Shown here one piece after another: positions 3,702-48,485 of a stretch of DNA of 64,000 nucleotides. A program made the translations under genes and the position numbers. Under the pieces are notes generated by a model. The model worked only from the letters and a program-made list of their open reading frames with translations, was not told the origin of the DNA and made no database searches. Origin of the DNA: a beta proteobacterium AAP51 (GTDB taxonomy: Bacteria > Pseudomonadota > Gammaproteobacteria > Burkholderiales > Burkholderiaceae_C); the NCBI GenBank assembly GCA_001295905.1, contig LJHT01000012.1, positions 1 to 64,000 on the forward strand. The letters run 5' to 3'. Numbering within the stretch: the stretch's first letter is position 1; each line of letters starts with the position of its first letter.

Positions 3702-3743
3702 CGGGCTCACACCGTCGGGCTCATGCTGTTGGGCTCATAAGGC
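3702..3743. repeat. Three 14-bp tandem repeats at the pirin stop codon
   Basis: Three imperfect copies of a 14-bp unit (core GGGCTCA) lie between the MOSC gene and the end of the pirin gene. The rightmost copy contains the pirin stop codon. On the pirin strand each copy carries TGA (at 3737-3735, 3723-3721 and 3709-3707), so the three copies place a stop in each reading frame. Confidence 0.7.
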
Positions 3744-4613
3744 TGGGCGTCTGTCAGGCAGCGGGATCGACTCCGTCTCGCCCGGCACCGGCGCAAAACG
3801 CCCGGCGGCCCAGTCTTCGGCGGCCTGCACGATGCGCTCTTTCCGCGACGAGACGAAGTTCCACCACATGTGGCGATGACCCAGCGGCGCGCCGCCCACC
3901 AGCACCACGCGGGCTTCGCCCTCGGCGCTGAGCATGGGCTCTTCACCGGCGGCCAGCACCACCAGGCGGCCGGGCGGCAGGTCTTCACCGTCCAGCTGCG
4001 CCCGGCCTTCCACCACGTAGAGCGCGCGCTCCTCGGCCAGCGGCAGCGGAAAGGCATCGCCCGCCGACAGCGCGATGTCGAGGTAGAGCGTGGGCGAGCG
4101 TACCGCCACGGGCGAGGCGGCGCCGAAGGCCTCGCCCACCAGCACGCGCAGGCGCGCGCCGCCCACCTCCAGCGCAGGGATGTCGGCCGCCGGCGTGTGG
4201 CTGAAGGCCGGCGCCATCTCTTCATCGGCCGCGGGCAAGGCCACCCACAGCTGCAGGCCGTGGCTGCGCCGCGCCACCTGGCGCAGGTCCTCGGGGGTGC
4301 GCTCGCTGTGCACGATGCCGCGGCCGGCGGTCATCCAGTTCACGGCGCCGGGCTCGATGCGCTGCACCACGCCCAGGCTGTCGCGGTGCTGCATGGCGCC
4401 TTCGAAGAGGTAGGTCACCGTGGCCAGGCCGATGTGGGGGTGCGCGCGCACGTCGTGCTGGTCCTGCGGGCCGGCTTCCACCGGGCCGAAGTGGTCGAAA
4501 AACACGAAGGGCCCCACGGCCTGGCGCGCAGCGGCCGGCAGGTAGCGCCGCACGGTGAAGCCGCCGCCCAGGTCTTTGGCATGCGGCGCGATCAGCTCTC
4601 GGGTGGGGTTCAT
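3735..4613 (-). CDS. Pirin family protein
   Basis: A 292-residue bicupin. The N-terminal cupin carries the four metal ligands of pirins: H58 and H60 (RAHPHIGLATVTYLFEG) and H102 and E104 (GIVHSER), spaced as in human pirin. The C-terminal cupin is also present (PLYVVEG-like block, then GHRHMWWNFVSS). Bacterial homologues include quercetin 2,3-dioxygenases (YhhW) and regulators of central metabolism, and the substrate cannot be read from sequence. The ATG at 4613 lies back-to-back with ychF, 52 bp apart. A longer frame upstream is the shadow of ychF. The gene ends inside the 14-bp repeat array described separately. Confidence 0.9.
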   Translation of the reverse strand: MNPTRELIAPHAKDLGGGFTVRRYLPAAARQAVGPFVFFDHFGPVEAGPQDQHDVRAHPHIGLATVTYLFEGAMQHRDSLGVVQRIEPGAVNWMTAGRGIVHSERTPEDLRQVARRSHGLQLWVALPAADEEMAPAFSHTPAADIPALEVGGARLRVLVGEAFGAASPVAVRSPTLYLDIALSAGDAFPLPLAEERALYVVEGRAQLDGEDLPPGRLVVLAAGEEPMLSAEGEARVVLVGGAPLGHRHMWWNFVSSRKERIVQAAEDWAAGRFAPVPGETESIPLPDRRPAL

Positions 4614-14349: not shown

Positions 14350-14374
14350 GGGGCGGATGATGCGCCGTCCGGGC

Positions 14375-14407
14375 CGCCTTCAGGGCGCCTTCAGGGCGCC
14401 TTGAAGC
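14375..14407. repeat. 11-bp tandem repeats upstream of the GGDEF-EAL gene
   Basis: Two perfect 11-bp copies (CGCCTTCAGGG on the plus strand) and a third degenerate copy lie in the 97-bp gap between udg and the GGDEF-EAL gene. On the transcribed strand the two perfect copies carry TGA. Nothing else recognisable is seen in the gap apart from a GC-rich hairpin near 14417-14433. Confidence 0.6.
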
Positions 14408-14446: not shown

Positions 14447-15298
14447 TCAGGCGCCGGCCTGCAGCACATCGGCGGCCAGACACAGGTCTTCCCAGGCCTT
14501 GGCCTTTTCGGGCAGGCTGCGCAGCAGGTAGGCCGGGTGGTAGCTCACCACCAGCGGCACACCCTGGTAGCGGTGCACCTGGCCGCGCAGCCGGCCGATG
14601 GGGGCGTCGCTGCGCAGCAGCGCCTGCACCGCGAAACGGCCCAGGGCCAGGATGATGCGGGGCCGCAGCAGCTCGATCTGCCGCACCAGGAAGGGCTCGC
14701 ACTGCGCCAGCTCTTCGGCGCTGGGGTTGCGGTTGCGGGGCGGGCGGCACTTCAGCGTGTTGGCGATGTAGACGCTGCGCTCGGGCGGGCCTTCGGTGCC
14801 GCGCGAAAGCTGCAGCGCGGCCAGCATGCGGTCGAGCAGCTGGCCCGAAGCGCCCACGAAAGGCTCGCCCTGGCGGTCTTCGTCTTCGCCCGGCGCCTCG
14901 CCCACCACCAGCCAGTGGGCCTGCGGATGGCCCACGCCGAAGACGGTTTGCGTGCGGCTTTCGCACAGGCCGCAGGCACGGCAGGCGGCGACGCTGTCGC
15001 GCAGTTCGGGCCAGCCCAGGGCGGCCAGCTCGGGGCGTGTGGACACCACGGCGGGGTTCAAGGCCGGCGGGGGCGCAGACACCGCAGTCCCTGGGGCGGC
15101 AGGGGCCGCGAGCCCGCGCGCGGTCGACGCGGCCAAGGCGGCGGGCGAGGCCGCAGCCTCGTGCAGGCCAGGGGCCAGGGCACGCGGGGTTGCCGCGGCG
15201 GGTGGCTGCTGCGGCTCGCTCGCTGCCGCCGGCCCGGGCGCCCACACGCGCAGGCCCATGCCCTGCAGCAGCTGGCGCTGGTGTTCGGTCCAGGCCAT
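14447..15298 (-). CDS. Family 4 uracil-DNA glycosylase with Fe-S cluster
   Basis: A 283-residue glycosylase of the SPO1-polymerase-related (family 4) type. It removes uracil from DNA at the start of base-excision repair. The core begins near residue 95. Cluster ligands are C109 and C112 (CRACGLC), C184 (TLKCRPPRNRNP) and C200. The catalytic motif is GEAPGEDEDRQGEPFVGASGQLLD (133-156), and a late SYHPAYLL block supplies the uracil-recognition histidine. Residues ~22-90 form an Ala/Pro-rich linker not seen in thermophile homologues. The gene is 3 bp after rimI, so tsaB-rimI-udg is a tight operon. Confidence 0.93.
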   Translation of the reverse strand: MAWTEHQRQLLQGMGLRVWAPGPAAASEPQQPPAAATPRALAPGLHEAAASPAALAASTARGLAAPAAPGTAVSAPPPALNPAVVSTRPELAALGWPELRDSVAACRACGLCESRTQTVFGVGHPQAHWLVVGEAPGEDEDRQGEPFVGASGQLLDRMLAALQLSRGTEGPPERSVYIANTLKCRPPRNRNPSAEELAQCEPFLVRQIELLRPRIILALGRFAVQALLRSDAPIGRLRGQVHRYQGVPLVVSYHPAYLLRSLPEKAKAWEDLCLAADVLQAGA

Positions 15299-16569: not shown

Positions 16570-18042
16570 ATGCCGAGGTCTTGCCGACCCTTACGCGCTG
16601 TTCGGCCCTGGTTCGCGGGGTGGGTGCTGATGGCCGCCAGCGCGGCCGCCCTGCCCCAGCCGCAGCCCGCCGCTGGCGCCACCCTGCCCCAGACCCGCCT
16701 ACCGCCCGAGGTGGCCCGCGCGCTGAAGGCCGCCGGCGTGCCGCCCGAGGCCCTGGCCGCGGTGGTGCACGACGCCACCACCGGCCAGCGCGTGCTGGCC
16801 TGGCAGGCCGCGCAGCCCATGAACCCGGCTTCGCTGCTGAAGCTGCTGACCACCGCCGCCGCGCTGGAGCGCCTGGGCCCTGCCTGGAACTGGGCCACAC
16901 CGGTGTGGCTGGCCGGCCCGCTGCGCGAGGGGGTGCTGGAAGGCTCGGTGCACCTGCAGGGCCGTGGCGACCCCACGCTGGACGCCGCCAGCGTCGGCCG
17001 CCTGCTGCGCCGCCTGCAGCAGCTGGGCGTGCGCGAGGTCCGCGGCGACATCGTGCTCGACCAGAGCGCCTTCGCCCTGCCGCCCACGGCCGCGGGCGAT
17101 TTCGACGGCGAACCCCTGCGCCCGCAGAACGTGCAGCCCGCGGCCCTGCTGCTGGCCCAGCGCACGCTGGTCTACAGCTTCCTGCCCGACGCGGCCGCCG
17201 GGGTGGCGCGCATCACGGTCGAGCCGCCGCTCACTTCAGCCCTGGCCACGCGCAGCGTGCCGCTGGCCACCGGCCCTTGCGACAACTGGCGGGCAGCACT
17301 GCAGCCGCAGTTCGAAGCCCCGCCCGCGCGCTTTGCCGGCCGCTATGCCAGCGCCTGCGGTGAGCTGGCCTGGGCCGTGGCCGACCCCGAACCCGCCAGC
17401 TTCGAGCTGCGCCTGCTGGAAGCCATGTGGCGCGAGCTGGGCGGCCGCCTGCAAGGCCGCGTGCGCGAAGGGCCGGCCCCGGCGGCACAGGCCCCGAGCT
17501 TCGAGCTGCGCTCGCCGCCGCTGGCCGAGGTGGTGCGCGAGATCAACAAGACCAGCAACAACCTGATGGCGCAGCAGCTTTTCCTCACGCTGGCGCTGCA
17601 GGCCCAGCCCGGCGTGCCGGCCACGCCCGACGGCGCCCGCGAAACCCTGCTGCGCTGGCTGCTCGAACGCACCGGGCCGCTGGGCGATGAAGTCATCATC
17701 GACAACGGCTCGGGCCTGTCGCGCCTGTCGCGGCTGAGCGCTCAGCGCCTGGCCCAGGTGCTGCTGCTGGCCTGGGACGGACCGCTGATGAGCGAGCTGA
17801 TGTCTTCGCTGCCCATCGCGGGCGTGGACGGCACACTGCGCCGTGCGCGCAGCTCGAACGGGCGCGCCCACCTGAAGACGGGTTCGCTGCGCGACGTGGC
17901 CGCATTGGGCGGCTACGTGCTGTCGAACAGCGGCCGGCGCTATGTGTTCGTGGCGCTCATCAACCACGAGCAGGCGCGCGAAGCACGCCCGGCCCTCGAC
18001 GCGCTGTTGCGCTGGACGCTGCGCGACGCGCCGGCCTTCTGA
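16570..18042 (+). CDS. dacB: D-alanyl-D-alanine carboxypeptidase/endopeptidase (PBP4 type)
   Basis: A 490-residue periplasmic penicillin-binding protein of class C (DacB/PBP4, peptidase S13). A signal peptide spans ~1-38. The three active-site motifs are present: S88-LL-K91 (NPASLLKLLTT), SxN at 329-331 (KTSNNLMAQ) and K436-T-G (HLKTGSLRD). The long insert between the first two motifs (~150-310) is typical of PBP4. It trims or cleaves peptidoglycan cross-links. Start choice: ATG at 16570 gives a clean signal peptide (MPRSCRPLRAVRPWFAGWVLMAASAAA). A much longer upstream frame is antisense to tsaB and rejected. The gene ends in a 10-bp repeat array. Confidence 0.93.
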   Translation: MPRSCRPLRAVRPWFAGWVLMAASAAALPQPQPAAGATLPQTRLPPEVARALKAAGVPPEALAAVVHDATTGQRVLAWQAAQPMNPASLLKLLTTAAALERLGPAWNWATPVWLAGPLREGVLEGSVHLQGRGDPTLDAASVGRLLRRLQQLGVREVRGDIVLDQSAFALPPTAAGDFDGEPLRPQNVQPAALLLAQRTLVYSFLPDAAAGVARITVEPPLTSALATRSVPLATGPCDNWRAALQPQFEAPPARFAGRYASACGELAWAVADPEPASFELRLLEAMWRELGGRLQGRVREGPAPAAQAPSFELRSPPLAEVVREINKTSNNLMAQQLFLTLALQAQPGVPATPDGARETLLRWLLERTGPLGDEVIIDNGSGLSRLSRLSAQRLAQVLLLAWDGPLMSELMSSLPIAGVDGTLRRARSSNGRAHLKTGSLRDVAALGGYVLSNSGRRYVFVALINHEQAREARPALDALLRWTLRDAPAF

Positions 18043-18064
18043 ACCCTTCTGAACCGTACTGAAC
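18035..18064. repeat. Three 10-bp tandem repeats over the dacB stop codon
   Basis: CCTTCTGAAC occurs twice perfectly and once with two changes. The first copy contains the dacB stop codon. Because the period is 10, the three TGA triplets (18040, 18050, 18060) fall in three different reading frames. Confidence 0.75.
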
Positions 18065-18089
18065 CGGCCCTGGCCGGCTGCGCCAACGC

Positions 18090-19058
18090 CTAGAAGGGGT
18101 TGCGCTGCGCGCGGTCGACGGCCAGCGAAGCCAGCTGCGCGTGGCCGCCGGGTGCCAGACGCACGTCGCTCGACCACAGGTAGGAACCGGGCACGCCGTC
18201 CACCACCAGCGTGTTGCTGGTGCAGGTGGGCAGCGGCACGGTGCAGACGGGGTCGCTCACGTTGCCCAGGTTGAAGGCAGGCGGAAAGCGGTCGATGGCC
18301 TGGAAGCGCAGCTGGCTCTGCATCAGGCCGACGAAACGGCCGTCGAGCAGCACGCTCACACCGAGCTGCTCGTTGAAGGCGGTGGTCAGGCGCGACAGCA
18401 AGGCCGCGCGGTTGACGCCGGTGGGGTCGAGCCGGGTTTCGGCGCGGGCGAAGGGGGTCACGCCGAGGTCGGGCACGTCGGACACCACCACCTTGGCGCC
18501 CAGGGCCACCAGGCGGTTCACCACCTGGGCCAGCCGCTGCCCGCGGGCGCGCGCCTCGGCCAGCAGCGTAGCTTCGTTCAGGCCGGGGTACTGGGCATAG
18601 AGCTCGAGCAGGTCGTTCGTGCCGGCCAGCACGGTGGCGAGGTCCTTGTCGCGGAAGCCGCCGGCGGCCACCTGCGCCTCGACCTGGGCCGCGACATCGG
18701 CCACCTTCGCGCCCGGCACGGCCAGCATGCGGGCCCGCGGGTTGGGTTCGAAGGTGGGGTTGCACTCGGCAAACACGAAGCCATAGACCCCGGCCAGCTG
18801 CTGCACCCAGATGGGGTTGCCCTGGCAGTTGAGCAGGCCGTTCTCGCCCAGCGCGTTGACGCTGTAGCTGCGGCCGTTGGGGTCGAGTGAACTGTCTTCG
18901 TCGCCGAAGACGAGCAGGCGGCCCGGCACGAAGGGGTCGAACTGGGAACTGCCGCCCCCGCAGGCGGCCAGCAGCCCCAGCGAGAGTAGGACTGCCTTTG
19001 CCGCCCACCGGCCGGCCGAACTGCGCCACCTTGTGAGGGCCATGCTGCTGAAGATCAT
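18090..19058 (-). CDS. SGNH/GDSL-like esterase lipoprotein
   Basis: A 322-residue secreted protein with a lipobox (LLAAC, Cys33) followed by a Gly/Ser linker. Block I reads LVFGDEDSSLDPNG where a GDSL enzyme normally has GDS. Block III is present as VLAGTNDLLELY, and block V may be DVRLAPGGHAQLASLA near the C-terminus. The blocks YSVNALGENGLLNCQGNPIWVQQLAG and FVFAECNP recur in Burkholderiales lipoproteins annotated as phospholipase/esterase. The catalytic serine is therefore uncertain (perhaps one of the SS pair). The ATG at 19058 has GGAG 5 bp upstream, which decides the start. It converges with dacB. Confidence 0.7.
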   Translation of the reverse strand: MIFSSMALTRWRSSAGRWAAKAVLLSLGLLAACGGGSSQFDPFVPGRLLVFGDEDSSLDPNGRSYSVNALGENGLLNCQGNPIWVQQLAGVYGFVFAECNPTFEPNPRARMLAVPGAKVADVAAQVEAQVAAGGFRDKDLATVLAGTNDLLELYAQYPGLNEATLLAEARARGQRLAQVVNRLVALGAKVVVSDVPDLGVTPFARAETRLDPTGVNRAALLSRLTTAFNEQLGVSVLLDGRFVGLMQSQLRFQAIDRFPPAFNLGNVSDPVCTVPLPTCTSNTLVVDGVPGSYLWSSDVRLAPGGHAQLASLAVDRAQRNPF

Positions 19059-23234: not shown

Positions 23235-23708
23235 TCAGGGCTTGTTGCCAGTGGGAAATGGCCAAGCAGCTGCGGGATTCAGTGCCGTCTTCGCAGGCGC
23301 TGCTGCAGGCGCTGGCGCAGGCGCAGGCGCAGTCGGTGCCGCAGGCGCGGCCTTCTTGGCTGCCTTCTTGGCAGCAGGCTTCTTCGCGGTTGGCTTCTTC
23401 GCCGCGGCCGCCTTCTTGGCCGGCGCAGCCTTCTTCGCCGGCGCCGCCTTGGGGGCAGCGGCCTTCTTCGCCGGGGCGGCCTTCTTGGCGGCAGCCTTCT
23501 TGGCCGGGGCGGCCTTCTTCGCCGGCGCAGCCTTCTTGGCGGCAGCGGCCTTCTTCGCCGGCGCAGCCTTCTTGGCCGGGGCTACCTTCTTGGCAGCAGC
23601 CTTCTTGGCCGGGGCGGCCTTCTTCGCCGGAGCGGCAGCCTTCTTGGCGGGGGCTGCCTTCTTCGCGGGAGCCTTCTTGGCCGGAGCGGCCTTCTTTGCA
23701 GTTGCCAT
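23235..23708 (-). CDS. Lysine/alanine-rich histone H1-like DNA-binding protein
   Basis: A 157-residue protein made mostly of tandem PAKKA / AAKKA units (about residues 3-115), then an Ala/Pro-rich stretch (APTAPAPAPAPAAAPAK) and a C-terminus LNPAAAWPFPTGNKP. Such tails resemble eukaryotic H1 C-terminal domains and the bacterial AlgP/HctB/BpH1 proteins, which bind DNA non-specifically and compact the nucleoid. Start choice: ATG at 23708 has AGGAG 7 bp upstream; MIKEIV a few codons earlier would include that site in the coding region. The repeated DNA makes length variation by slippage likely. It follows nrdB by 274 bp. Confidence 0.88.
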   Translation of the reverse strand: MATAKKAAPAKKAPAKKAAPAKKAAAPAKKAAPAKKAAAKKVAPAKKAAPAKKAAAAKKAAPAKKAAPAKKAAAKKAAPAKKAAAPKAAPAKKAAPAKKAAAAKKPTAKKPAAKKAAKKAAPAAPTAPAPAPAPAAAPAKTALNPAAAWPFPTGNKP

Positions 23709-23731
23709 AACGATCTCCTTGATCAAGTTAC

Positions 23732-25381: not shown

Positions 25382-28291
<2,910 letters not shown>

Positions 28292-28545
28292 TCAATCCCC
28301 TCTTGGTCTTTCGAGTCGTTCGGTCGTCGGTTCGTTCTGGGCCGCAGTGACTGCGGCGCCCGCCCGAAGCACGGCCGGGTGGCTGTGCCTGGACGGTGGT
28401 GATCGCAGGTGTCGGCGGCTTGTGATGGCAAGGCCTGCTGCTTGCCCCTGGCCAGCCTGGCTGGGAGCCTGCCGCCACGCCCGGGGCGGTGCACCCTGGT
28501 CCTGGTTCACGCTTTCCCCACGTGGTGGCCTTGACAACGGTTTTC

Positions 28546-28569
28546 GCAGCAGTGTTTGCAGCAGTGTTT
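28546..28569. repeat. Perfect 12-bp tandem duplication in the nrdA leader
   Basis: GCAGCAGTGTTT occurs twice without a gap. It lies about 20 bp downstream of the proposed nrdA -10 box, so it should be in the transcribed leader, some 255-280 bases ahead of the nrdA start. Confidence 0.7.
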
Positions 28570-28590
28570 GCGGCGTTGAGTGGTCACGAG

Positions 28591-28596
28591 ATTATC
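28591..28596 (-). promoter_or_regulatory. Possible -10 element of the nrdA promoter
   Basis: On the minus strand GATAAT matches the sigma-70 -10 consensus at five of six positions. No good -35 hexamer lies at the normal distance. The region upstream is occupied by the first NrdR-like box, which would fit repression by NrdR. It would give a leader of about 290 bases. Confidence 0.45.
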
Positions 28597-28604
28597 ACGA
28601 GAAG

Positions 28605-28620
28605 GCACTATATCTGGGGT
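28605..28620. promoter_or_regulatory. NrdR-like box 1
   Basis: GCACTATATCTGGGGT matches the 16-bp palindromic NrdR consensus ACACTATATATAGTGT at 12 positions, with the left half best. It lies directly upstream of the possible nrdA -10 box. NrdR represses ribonucleotide reductase genes when dATP is abundant. Confidence 0.65.
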
Positions 28621-28636
28621 ACCAGGGTCCTTCAAG

Positions 28637-28652
28637 GCACTACGGCTAGTGT
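28637..28652. promoter_or_regulatory. NrdR-like box 2
   Basis: GCACTACGGCTAGTGT keeps both palindromic arms (CACTA ... TAGTG) of the NrdR box. Its centre is 32 bp from that of box 1, the three-turn spacing typical of paired NrdR sites, which strengthens both assignments. Confidence 0.68.
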
Positions 28653-28988
28653 CTGCTGCGGGGCTTCCCCGATGGCGCGTCGCACGCCAGGGGCCTCTTG
28701 ATCGCCCCGCCGGCACTGGCAGGCGCGCGCCTGGTTCCGCCCACCGGCCCATGCGCCGCGCGGCGCTTTCCAGTGGCACGCGCAAGCCGCGCGGAGCCTG
28801 GCAAAAACGGGGCAAATGCCTCGGCAAGGCGCATGGTAGGCGGCTCTGCCGCAGAGGTTGCGCCGCGGCCCGCAGCTGCGCATGGCGCTGAACGGACCGC
28901 GGCTCCTCGGTCAGCCGTCTTGTCAAGACCATTCTCGCGGGGTCGCGCCGCAGCCACATCCAGGGGCCGCGGGTGCGGGGCGCGCTGC

Positions 28989-30574
<1,586 letters not shown>

Positions 30575-30578
<4 letters not shown>

Positions 30579-35250: not shown

Positions 35251-36003
35251 ATGAACCCTTTGACCGACACCCCCGCGCCCATGGATTTCCTGTTTGCCGA
35301 CGCCTCCTTCGCGCTGCCAGCCACGGTGCTGTTGTTGCTGGCTCTGTTGGTGGTGCGGCTGCGCAACCGGCAGGGCGCCCGGCGTAGCACCGCGCGGGAA
35401 GCACTCGATACCGTGGCCAGTTGGCCCCCTGAGGCCGCCCGCGTGCTGACCATTGCCGAGCGCCAGGCCTACGAGCTGGTGCGCCGCTCGCTGCCCGGCT
35501 ATCTGGTGCTGGCACAGGTGCCGCTGTCGCGCTTCATCCGCGTGCCGGCCCGTTATTCGTACACCGACTGGCTGCAGCGCGTGGGTTCGCTCAGCGCCGA
35601 CCTGCTGGTGTGCGATGCCGGCTCGCGCGTGCTGGCGGTGGTGGACATCCGCTCTTCCGGTGAGAGCGATCGCTCACGCCGCCGCCACGAACGCATGTCG
35701 CGCGTGCTGCGCAAGGCCGGCGTGCACGTGCTCACCTGGAACGAGGACGACCTGCCCAGCGCGTCCGAGGTGCGGCATGCCATGGTGGCCATCGCGGGCG
35801 GTGCCGCCACGGTGGCCAAGGCTGCTGCTGCCGCCGCCGCCGCGACCTCTTCGCGCCCGATGCCGCTCATTCCGGTGGGTGATATCTCCGAGGTGCTCGC
35901 CGAAGGCGACCGCGCCGCCTTCGAGGCCCAGCTCGACCCCGCGATGGAGCCCGTGCCGTCGGCCTTCTTCGAAGAGCTGGAGCCGGAACCCTCTCGCCGC
36001 TGA
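35251..36003 (+). CDS. DUF2726 protein with membrane anchor
   Basis: A 250-residue protein. A membrane helix (~18-35: LPATVLLLLALLVVRLRN) is followed by a DUF2726 domain (~60-175) with the typical order of LTIAERQAYELVRRSLP, VLAQVPLSRFIRV, DLLVCDAGSRVLAVVDIR and KAGVHVLTWNEDDLPS. This domain resembles nuclease/nucleotide-interacting folds, with conserved D/R residues, but has no established function. An Ala-rich tail follows. Two ATGs (35251, 35281) are possible; neither has a strong ribosome site. The 119-bp gap after ffh holds a weak 6-bp hairpin only. Confidence 0.8.
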   Translation: MNPLTDTPAPMDFLFADASFALPATVLLLLALLVVRLRNRQGARRSTAREALDTVASWPPEAARVLTIAERQAYELVRRSLPGYLVLAQVPLSRFIRVPARYSYTDWLQRVGSLSADLLVCDAGSRVLAVVDIRSSGESDRSRRRHERMSRVLRKAGVHVLTWNEDDLPSASEVRHAMVAIAGGAATVAKAAAAAAAATSSRPMPLIPVGDISEVLAEGDRAAFEAQLDPAMEPVPSAFFEELEPEPSRR

Positions 36004-36030
36004 ACGGCCGCTGAACTGCCGCTGAGGCGC
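35998..36030. repeat. Three 11-bp tandem repeats over the DUF2726 gene stop codon
   Basis: CGCTGAACGGC, CGCTGAACTGC and CGCTGAGGCGC follow each other directly. The first contains the stop codon. TGA triplets at 36001, 36012 and 36023 lie in three different frames. Confidence 0.72.
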
Positions 36031-47344: not shown

Positions 47345-48430
47345 ATGAACCCTGCCCTGCGCGACCCCTTCGAACGCCTGGCCCTGCGCCTGGCCGAGCT
47401 CGACGCCACGCTGGCCGACCCCGCGGTGGCCAGCGACATCAAGCGCTGGCGCGCGCTCTCGCGCGAGCAGGCCGAAGCCAGCAGCATCGTGCAGCGCTAC
47501 CGCCTGTACCAGCAGCGCGAGGCCGACCTGGCCACCGCCCAGGAGATGCAGGCCGACCCCGAGATGGCCGAGATGGCGCAAGAGGAAATCGCCGCGGCCA
47601 GCGCCGACCTGCAGCGCCTGCAGGCCGAGCTGCAGACGGCGCTGATCCCCAAGGACCCCGACGACGCGCGCAATGCCTTCCTGGAGATACGCGCCGGCAC
47701 GGGCGGCGACGAAAGCGCGCTCTTTGCAGGCGACCTGGCGCGCATGTACCTGCGCCACTGCGAGCGCCAGGGCTGGCGCACCGAGGTCATGAGCCAGAGC
47801 GACAGCGAACTCGGCGGCTACAAGGAACTGGTGCTGCGCGTCGAGGGCGAGGGTGTCTACGGCCGGCTGCGTTTCGAGAGTGGCGGCCACCGCGTGCAGC
47901 GCGTGCCGGCCACCGAAAGCCAGGGCCGCATCCACACCAGCGCCTGCACCGTGGCCGTGATGCCCGAGCCCGACGAAGCCGAAGAGATCACACTGAACCC
48001 GGCAGACCTGCGCATCGACACCTTCCGCGCCAGCGGTGCCGGCGGCCAGCACGTGAACAAGACCGACAGCGCCATCCGCATCACCCACCTGCCCACCGGC
48101 CTGGTGGCCGAGTGCCAGGACGACCGCAGCCAGCACCGCAACAAGGCCAAGGCCCTGGCGGTGCTGCAGGCACGGCTGCGCGACAAGGAACACACCGAGC
48201 GCGCTGCCAAGGAAGCGGCCACGCGCAAGGGGCTCATCGGCAGCGGCGACCGCAGCGACCGCATCCGCACCTACAACTTCCCGCAGGGCCGGCTCACCGA
48301 CCACCGCATCAACCTCACGCTGTACAAGCTGGGCCAGGTGATGGACGGCGACCTGGGCGACGTGCTCGATGCCCTGCAGGCCGCCCGCGCGGCCGAACAG
48401 CTGGCCCAGCTGGAAAGCGGCGCGCGCTGA
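47345..48430 (+). CDS. prfA: Peptide chain release factor 1
   Basis: A 361-residue RF1. The codon-recognition PxT motif is present as PAT in [20 protein letters not shown], giving UAA/UAG specificity. The catalytic GGQ is at residues 233-235 ([17 protein letters not shown]), whose glutamine is methylated by PrmC, encoded next. The N-terminal coiled-coil domain and the C-terminal basic domain are of normal size. The ATG at 47345 is canonical. The gene itself ends with TGA, which RF1 does not read. Confidence 0.97.
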
Positions 48431-48437
48431 GGCGCGG

Positions 48438-48485
48438 CCTGTTGAGCTGCCTCTTGATCGGCCTCTTGATCCGCCTCTTGATCCG
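48438..48485. repeat. Four 12-bp tandem repeats between prfA and prmC
   Basis: CCTCTTGATC(G/C)G occurs three times, preceded by a diverged copy (CCTGTTGAGCTG). Every copy carries TGA, and all are in frame with the prfA stop at 48428. The array ends 18 bp before the prmC start and must be in the prfA-prmC mRNA. Confidence 0.8.

Follow-up and report, generated by a model that had tools for sequence, protein, structure and literature searches.

Tandem duplications of 8 to 14 bp that arise by slipped-strand events are the closest described counterpart of the arrays reported here. The two share head-to-tail copies, a unit that differs from place to place, a prevalence of lengths that are multiples of three (3n) inside genes, and a lack of counterparts at almost every homologous site examined in other species. 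They differ in that the genus considered here is unusually array-rich beside the few other Burkholderiales sampled, that many arrays of the present genome lie at convergent gene ends, and that slippage is the mutational step we infer for them. Ho and Hurst 2019 (PMC6764699) tested additional stop codons in eubacteria, and the part of the article available to us reports a paucity and not an enrichment. As in that work, the arrays place extra stop triplets a few codons past the primary stop; unlike the stops it treats, as far as that part of the article describes them, those of the arrays are duplication products that lie mostly outside the frame of the gene, and the array-free stops of the present genome are followed by no overall surplus of stops. 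The ambush hypothesis concerns out-of-frame stop codons inside coding sequence (PMC5909447, PMC3700767, PMC2996987, all seen in part); stops in the +1 and -1 frames would end frameshifted translation in either case, whereas the array stops lie at or just past the gene end and those of the hypothesis, as these excerpts present it, within the coding sequence. Among the titles and abstract openings listed in searches of open-access papers, no account was found of stop-spanning arrays of the kind seen at dacB.

Tandem arrays at gene ends in the window

The window, meaning the whole stretch of 64,000 nucleotides that was analysed, comes from a genome that probably belongs to Rubrivivax, a genus taken because a related dacB was found at 16 named loci, 6 of which, including most of the closest, are Rubrivivax. 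At the 3′ end of dacB the window reads gccggccttcTGAacccttcTGAaccgtacTGAaccggcc, with TGA at 18040, 18050 and 18060; the first of these is the dacB stop (18040-18042), within the 10-bp array, and the lags of 0, +10 and +20 close frames 0, 1 and 2 (Table 1). The earlier note's description of a 10-bp unit repeated three times, with TGA in every frame, was thus confirmed. The gap to the convergent GDSL-like lipase gene is 47 nt. No terminator-like site was found on either strand between 17950 and 18200, and the RNA fold at the dacB 3′ end is ordinary (z = -0.55), and an RNA structure or terminator at this gene end was rejected on these results.

Table 1. Coordinates of stop-associated tandem arrays and their genes in the window
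Feature	Position	Strand	Basis or remark
14-bp diverged tandem array over pirin stop	3702-3738	-	coordinates derived from finder offsets
Pirin gene (PF02678, PF05726)	3735-4613	-	Pfam
11-bp tandem array in tandem gap, not over a stop	14362-14402	-	same kind of array
Uracil-DNA glycosylase family gene	14447-15298	-	near 11-bp array
dacB, D-Ala-D-Ala carboxypeptidase, Peptidase_S13 / PBP4 family	16624-18042	+	start from own gene caller
10-bp tandem array over dacB stop	18035-18065	+	Tandem Repeats Finder: period 10, 3.1 copies, 90% matches
GDSL-like lipase gene (weak Pfam match), convergent to dacB	18090-18929	-	Pfam
DUF2726 gene (PF10881)	35251-36003	+	Pfam
11-bp tandem array over DUF2726 stop	35996-36025	+	2.7 copies; three frames closed
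Release factor gene, probably prfA (PCRF + RF-1 domains)	47345-48430	+	Pfam; PrmC-like gene next
12-bp tandem array just 3′ of prfA stop	48437-48485	+	4.1 copies; TGAs all frame 0

The further arrays that the earlier note had listed at the ends of the pirin (14 bp), DUF2726 (11 bp) and prfA (12 bp, in frame) genes are all present. The pirin array closes three frames. The release factor gene is probably prfA and not prfB, judging from its PrmC-like neighbour; its stop lies at 48428-48430, the clear repeat begins after it, and the array supplies four further TGAs, in frame. The ungapped finder extends this array back across the stop, and prfA was therefore counted among the over-stop arrays. In the 11-bp array at 14362-14402, the part found by the ungapped finder starts 47 nt away from the stop codon of the uracil-DNA glycosylase family gene (counted to the first base of that codon), and the unit contains TGA on the strand of that gene.

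Repeats of other kinds were also seen. An exact 12-bp repeat, GCAGCAGTGTTT (28546-28571, 2.2 copies), lies between the genes at 25382-28291 (-) and 28989-30578 (-), and the open frame over it (28507-28959, -) had no Pfam or NCBIfam match. The gene at 23235-23726 (-) encodes a lysine/alanine/proline-rich repeat protein with AAPAKKA units and DNA periods of 18, 33 and 51, which we take to resemble histone H1-type bacterial proteins. Outside the window, a dispersed repeat around GCAAGGCCGGAAGGCCTTGCNCGGCTGGCGAAGGCC has 14 exact matches in the same genome (C8:73409, C39:40845 and 12 others), at least two of them in convergent gaps and some no more than 30 bases from the first base of a contig; none falls in the window. 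A dispersed element with CCCCCAAGCTCNCTNCGNTCGCTACCCCC has four copies (C6:20269, C46:79775, C90:6902 and C93:1666), two of them in convergent gaps, with one or two copies in each of four genomes of the same genus (G003, G007, G008, G011) and none in the 16 other genomes searched.

Frequency of arrays and their absence at homologous stops

A sample of 1.15 Mb of the 5.10-Mb assembly (144 contigs), window included, gave 884 genes with our own codon-usage caller, which on an annotated plasmid stretch recovered 47 of 49 stops and made 7 further calls. Ungapped tandem arrays with a period of 7 to 30 and at least two full copies were collected, and 21 of them span one of the 569 stops that are followed by a gap of 10 to 350 nt. 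In the 598 gaps of the sample, each extended by 15 nt at both ends, 56 arrays were counted, against 3.6 per replicate of a first-order Markov control (10 replicates), and 28 strong arrays (score ≥16) against 0.0 per replicate. Head-to-tail copies thus exceed chance, and the arrays are confirmed as real and common in this genome; the local duplication at gene ends that the earlier note had proposed is supported. The units are unrelated from place to place, with periods over stops mostly of 8 to 14.

Arrays with a period not divisible by three (non-3n) cover 0.08% of coding interiors, where 3n arrays cover 0.98%. Non-3n coverage is 3.3% at stop codons, 4.6% at +1-20, 3.2% at +21-40 and 1.3% at +41-80 downstream of the stop, and 0.5% in divergent (5′/5′) gaps. 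Measured as the earlier note had proposed, by array frequency at stops relative to other intergenic DNA, stops stand well above divergent gaps, and in that form the comparison does not go against the note, but they do not exceed the non-coding DNA directly beside them (4.6% at +1-20). Because the neighbouring bases are covered at least as densely as the stop, it is non-coding DNA at gene ends, more than the stop itself, that is enriched.

We think it probable that the arrays are slippage duplications that survive where the protein stays unchanged, and we infer both the slippage and its neutrality. A short unit (10 bp at dacB, mostly 8 to 14 bp elsewhere) would be duplicated by a slipped-strand event, in a lineage that may create or retain short duplications unusually often. 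If the duplicated unit contains the stop codon, the protein would be unchanged because the first copy still terminates the gene, and the stop would be copied along with the array. Within coding DNA, chiefly duplications that are multiples of three would survive, and near start signals duplications would probably be removed; convergent gaps, which lack start signals, would therefore let arrays accumulate. Duplication of this kind in the lineage would account for the existence of the arrays, for their varied units and turnover, and for most of where they lie.

Other genomes of the genus contain such arrays at varying rates. One of them, G012, has 9 over 252 gap-facing stops, G007 has 1 over 121, and seven related-dacB loci (six from Rubrivivax, one from an uncultured betaproteobacterium) have 2 over 80. 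For other or unstated genera the counts were 0/119 (G017), 3/120 (G019), 0/110 (G016) and 1/77 (nine related-dacB loci). G012 is array-rich as a whole: 400 kb contain 249 arrays, and 3n arrays occupy 1.7% of its coding-interior bases, the highest share among the genomes sampled. In 13 genomes of the genus, the pattern CTGA-N7-CTGA-N7-CTGA had 58 matches (backward control, 3; irregular spacing, 5) and CTCA-N7-CTCA-N7-CTCA, with no stop in the unit, had 47; these are raw counts without base-rate adjustment, in which one array may count repeatedly and some arrays are matched by one pattern on each strand. G012 supplies 28 of the 47 CTCA matches, and excluding it leaves 37 CTGA against 19 CTCA; in the present genome the counts are 4 and 1, and the single CTCA match is a CTGAG array seen on its other strand. 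Regular 11-bp spacing is therefore itself in excess in the genus, and 11-bp arrays occur whether or not the unit includes a stop.

The dacB array itself was seen at none of its counterparts. Of 35 dacB-like loci examined (L028, a split match, was left out), the window supplies one and another (L025) is cut off by the end of its contig; the remaining 33 include distant paralogues and perhaps the same species twice, and none of these, each with a readable stop, carries a TGA array over it. One alone (L026) has an array over the stop, of 12 bp and minimal score. Two loci whose downstream DNA resembles that of the window by eye (L022, L062) have no array over the stop. The nearest dacB relatives found are about 65 to 67% identical, and no second strain of the species was met, in a search that may omit records very near the window's genome. 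Among 13 orthologue-like hits, which cover 5 of the 23 array-bearing genes of this genome and of which 6 are dacB again, none has an array over its stop. A conserved element specific to the locus was accordingly rejected, and by these comparisons of sequence the arrays appear not to be conserved at homologous stops.

Frames, periods and retained TGA copies

The earlier note had read the arrays as a possible fail-safe against frameshifting. In this form of selection, in GC-rich DNA where stops seldom arise by chance, duplicating a stop by a non-3n length would close both other frames near the gene end, and at convergent pairs it would stop frameshifted translation from entering the antisense strand of the neighbour. 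We consider such a selected trap unlikely, although several observations agree with it. Twelve of the 21 over-stop arrays close three frames within the array. At convergent stops without an array the median distance to the next stop is 79, 59 and 56 codons in frames 0, +1 and +2 (n = 129), against 42, 6 and 3 codons with an array (n = 13). Periods over stops have remainders of 0, 1 and 2 on division by three in 1, 4 and 15 cases (n = 20, counting arrays that have 6 nt or more within a gap), and the 15 with remainder 2 close the -1 frame first; the other gap arrays divide 26/5/8.

The period bias was nonetheless rejected as proof of selection, because it holds only under the gap filter, because the 3n arrays of tandem gaps, and with them the 3n contrast (26/39), may include uncalled coding DNA, and because it is not repeated in G012. 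The share of 3n periods over stops is 1/20 with the filter (P = 0.011 if 2/7 is expected) and 4/23 without it (P = 0.17); P values throughout are nominal, per single test, and many tests were picked after the data had been seen. Counted over all called stops, remainders 0/1/2 are 4/4/15 in this genome and 5/2/4 in G012, where the filtered counts are 3/2/3. Non-3n arrays over stops thus number 19/20 here and 5/8 in G012 with the filter, and 19/23 and 6/11 over all called stops.

Placement was assessed by sliding each array uniformly across the positions that leave the proteins unchanged. In this genome 8 of 10 non-3n convergent arrays lie over a stop against 4.3 expected (P = 0.014), a comparison that omits five convergent over-stop arrays starting deeper in the coding sequence than the model allows; for non-3n tandem arrays the figures are 3 of 10 and 0.95 (P = 0.056). 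In the other Rubrivivax sets (G012, G007 and the seven loci with a related dacB), non-3n placement fits the uniform model (convergent 0/3, 0.45 expected; tandem 2/24, 1.99 expected), with 3n arrays over stops in 0/4 convergent (1.19 expected) and 3/18 tandem cases (1.58 expected). G012 alone shows no excess over the placement expectation.

Retention of the TGA copies is also in favour of selection in this genome. The TGA phase is identical between neighbouring copies in 38 of 55 comparisons, against 191 of 340 for other phases (random-phase P = 0.014), and in 22 of 33 when the primary stop is left out (P = 0.036); pooled over five sets, the counts are 62/96 against 381/620 (P = 0.10). The strongest single case of kept TGA copies is the array at the 3′ end of the gene at C39:49189-49890 (-), with five TGAs at an exact 14-nt spacing and largely diverged flanks. 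In 15 of 23 arrays, dacB included, the stop sits in the first unit, so later copies cannot change the protein, which bears on any comparison with phase-variable contingency repeats. The reverse order of events, in which an existing TGA array captures the stop, has too few candidates, as only 2 of 28 downstream arrays of this genome have a recurring TGA.

Stop triplets after array-free stops were compared in total with their reverse-complement triplets, and a mononucleotide shuffle was used. There was no excess at the convergent stops (31 against 36, n = 129) or the tandem stops (87 against 113, n = 306) of this genome, and G012 tandem stops gave 46 against 32. By frame, with array neighbourhoods excluded and counting stopped at the gap end, lags 4-63 gave 66, 72 and 98 stop triplets in frames 0, 1 and 2 (frame 2: 98/236, P = 0.009), an unevenness equalled by 2 of 58 sense triplets; lags 4-33 gave 37/37/54. 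This frame 2 excess comes from tandem gaps (53/54/78; 78/185) more than from the convergent gaps where the arrays are (13/18/20; 20/51). It does not reach significance in the remaining Rubrivivax sets (44/55/57; 57/156, P = 0.40) or the outgroup (170/164/184; 184/518, P = 0.28), nor in any single distance bin of this genome (P = 0.07, 0.25 and 0.10); of 12 single-bin tests one was low (G012, lags 16-33, P = 0.015). A larger frame 2 excess of second stops with dissimilar flanks (44/47/87) was set aside because its fixed windows could enter the next gene; restricted to the gap and with array neighbourhoods removed, it dropped to the 37/37/54 given above for lags 4-33. The small excess of -1 frame stops in this genome is the best sign of a frameshift trap, yet it lies where arrays are rarer.

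Of the frameshift fail-safe, then, the better-kept TGA copies and the small frame +2 excess stand for this genome, but neither is significant in the related genomes taken together, and the arrays are not conserved between species. The signals of selection are weak, being small, picked post hoc and unconfirmed in relatives. We think it improbable that weak selection keeps non-3n stop duplications as frame-closing traps in a GC-rich lineage where chance stops are rare, mostly with the -1 frame closed first (periods 8, 11 and 14) and with new arrays formed as old ones decay.

Convergent gene ends and the meaning of the arrays

Arrays in this genome favour convergent gene ends. Non-3n coverage is 7.3% in convergent, 1.1% in tandem and 0.5% in divergent gaps, and arrays lie over 13 of 186 convergent stops against 8 of 383 tandem stops (Fisher P = 0.007). 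Counted by gap, non-3n arrays occur in 15 of 93 convergent, 13 of 383 tandem and 3 of 122 divergent gaps, and 3n arrays in 0 of 93, 18 of 383 and 7 of 122, respectively. Arrays in convergent gaps cover 8.1% of the bases that lie 1-10 nt from the stop, then 12.0% (11-20 nt), 8.2% (21-40 nt) and 1.6% (beyond 40 nt). Both the preference and the drop with distance are what would be expected if transcription through convergent ends, by collision or R-loops, raised slippage there and the arrays brought no benefit. Such a mutational hot spot is nonetheless doubtful, given that array-rich G012 shows no convergent preference (non-3n arrays in 3 of 42 convergent and 20 of 168 tandem gaps) and that weaker constraint in convergent gaps predicts the same distribution. 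A fail-safe against read-through by additional in-frame stops, which the earlier note had also suggested and which has the four further in-frame TGAs of the prfA array in its favour, was rejected on the frame counts and is very improbable, since a second in-frame stop occurs in only 3 of 21 over-stop arrays, frame 0 has the fewest stops after array-free stops (66/236), and the eubacterial test cited above reports, in the part available, a paucity of additional stops.

If the arrays were selected, they would represent an out-of-frame fail-safe at bacterial gene ends, in contrast to published work in which selection for extra in-frame stops is lacking. On present evidence, slippage duplication tolerated where the protein is unchanged remains the best reading, under which a duplication-prone lineage yields stops in all three frames largely by tolerance, and the arrays caution against reading design into such gene ends.
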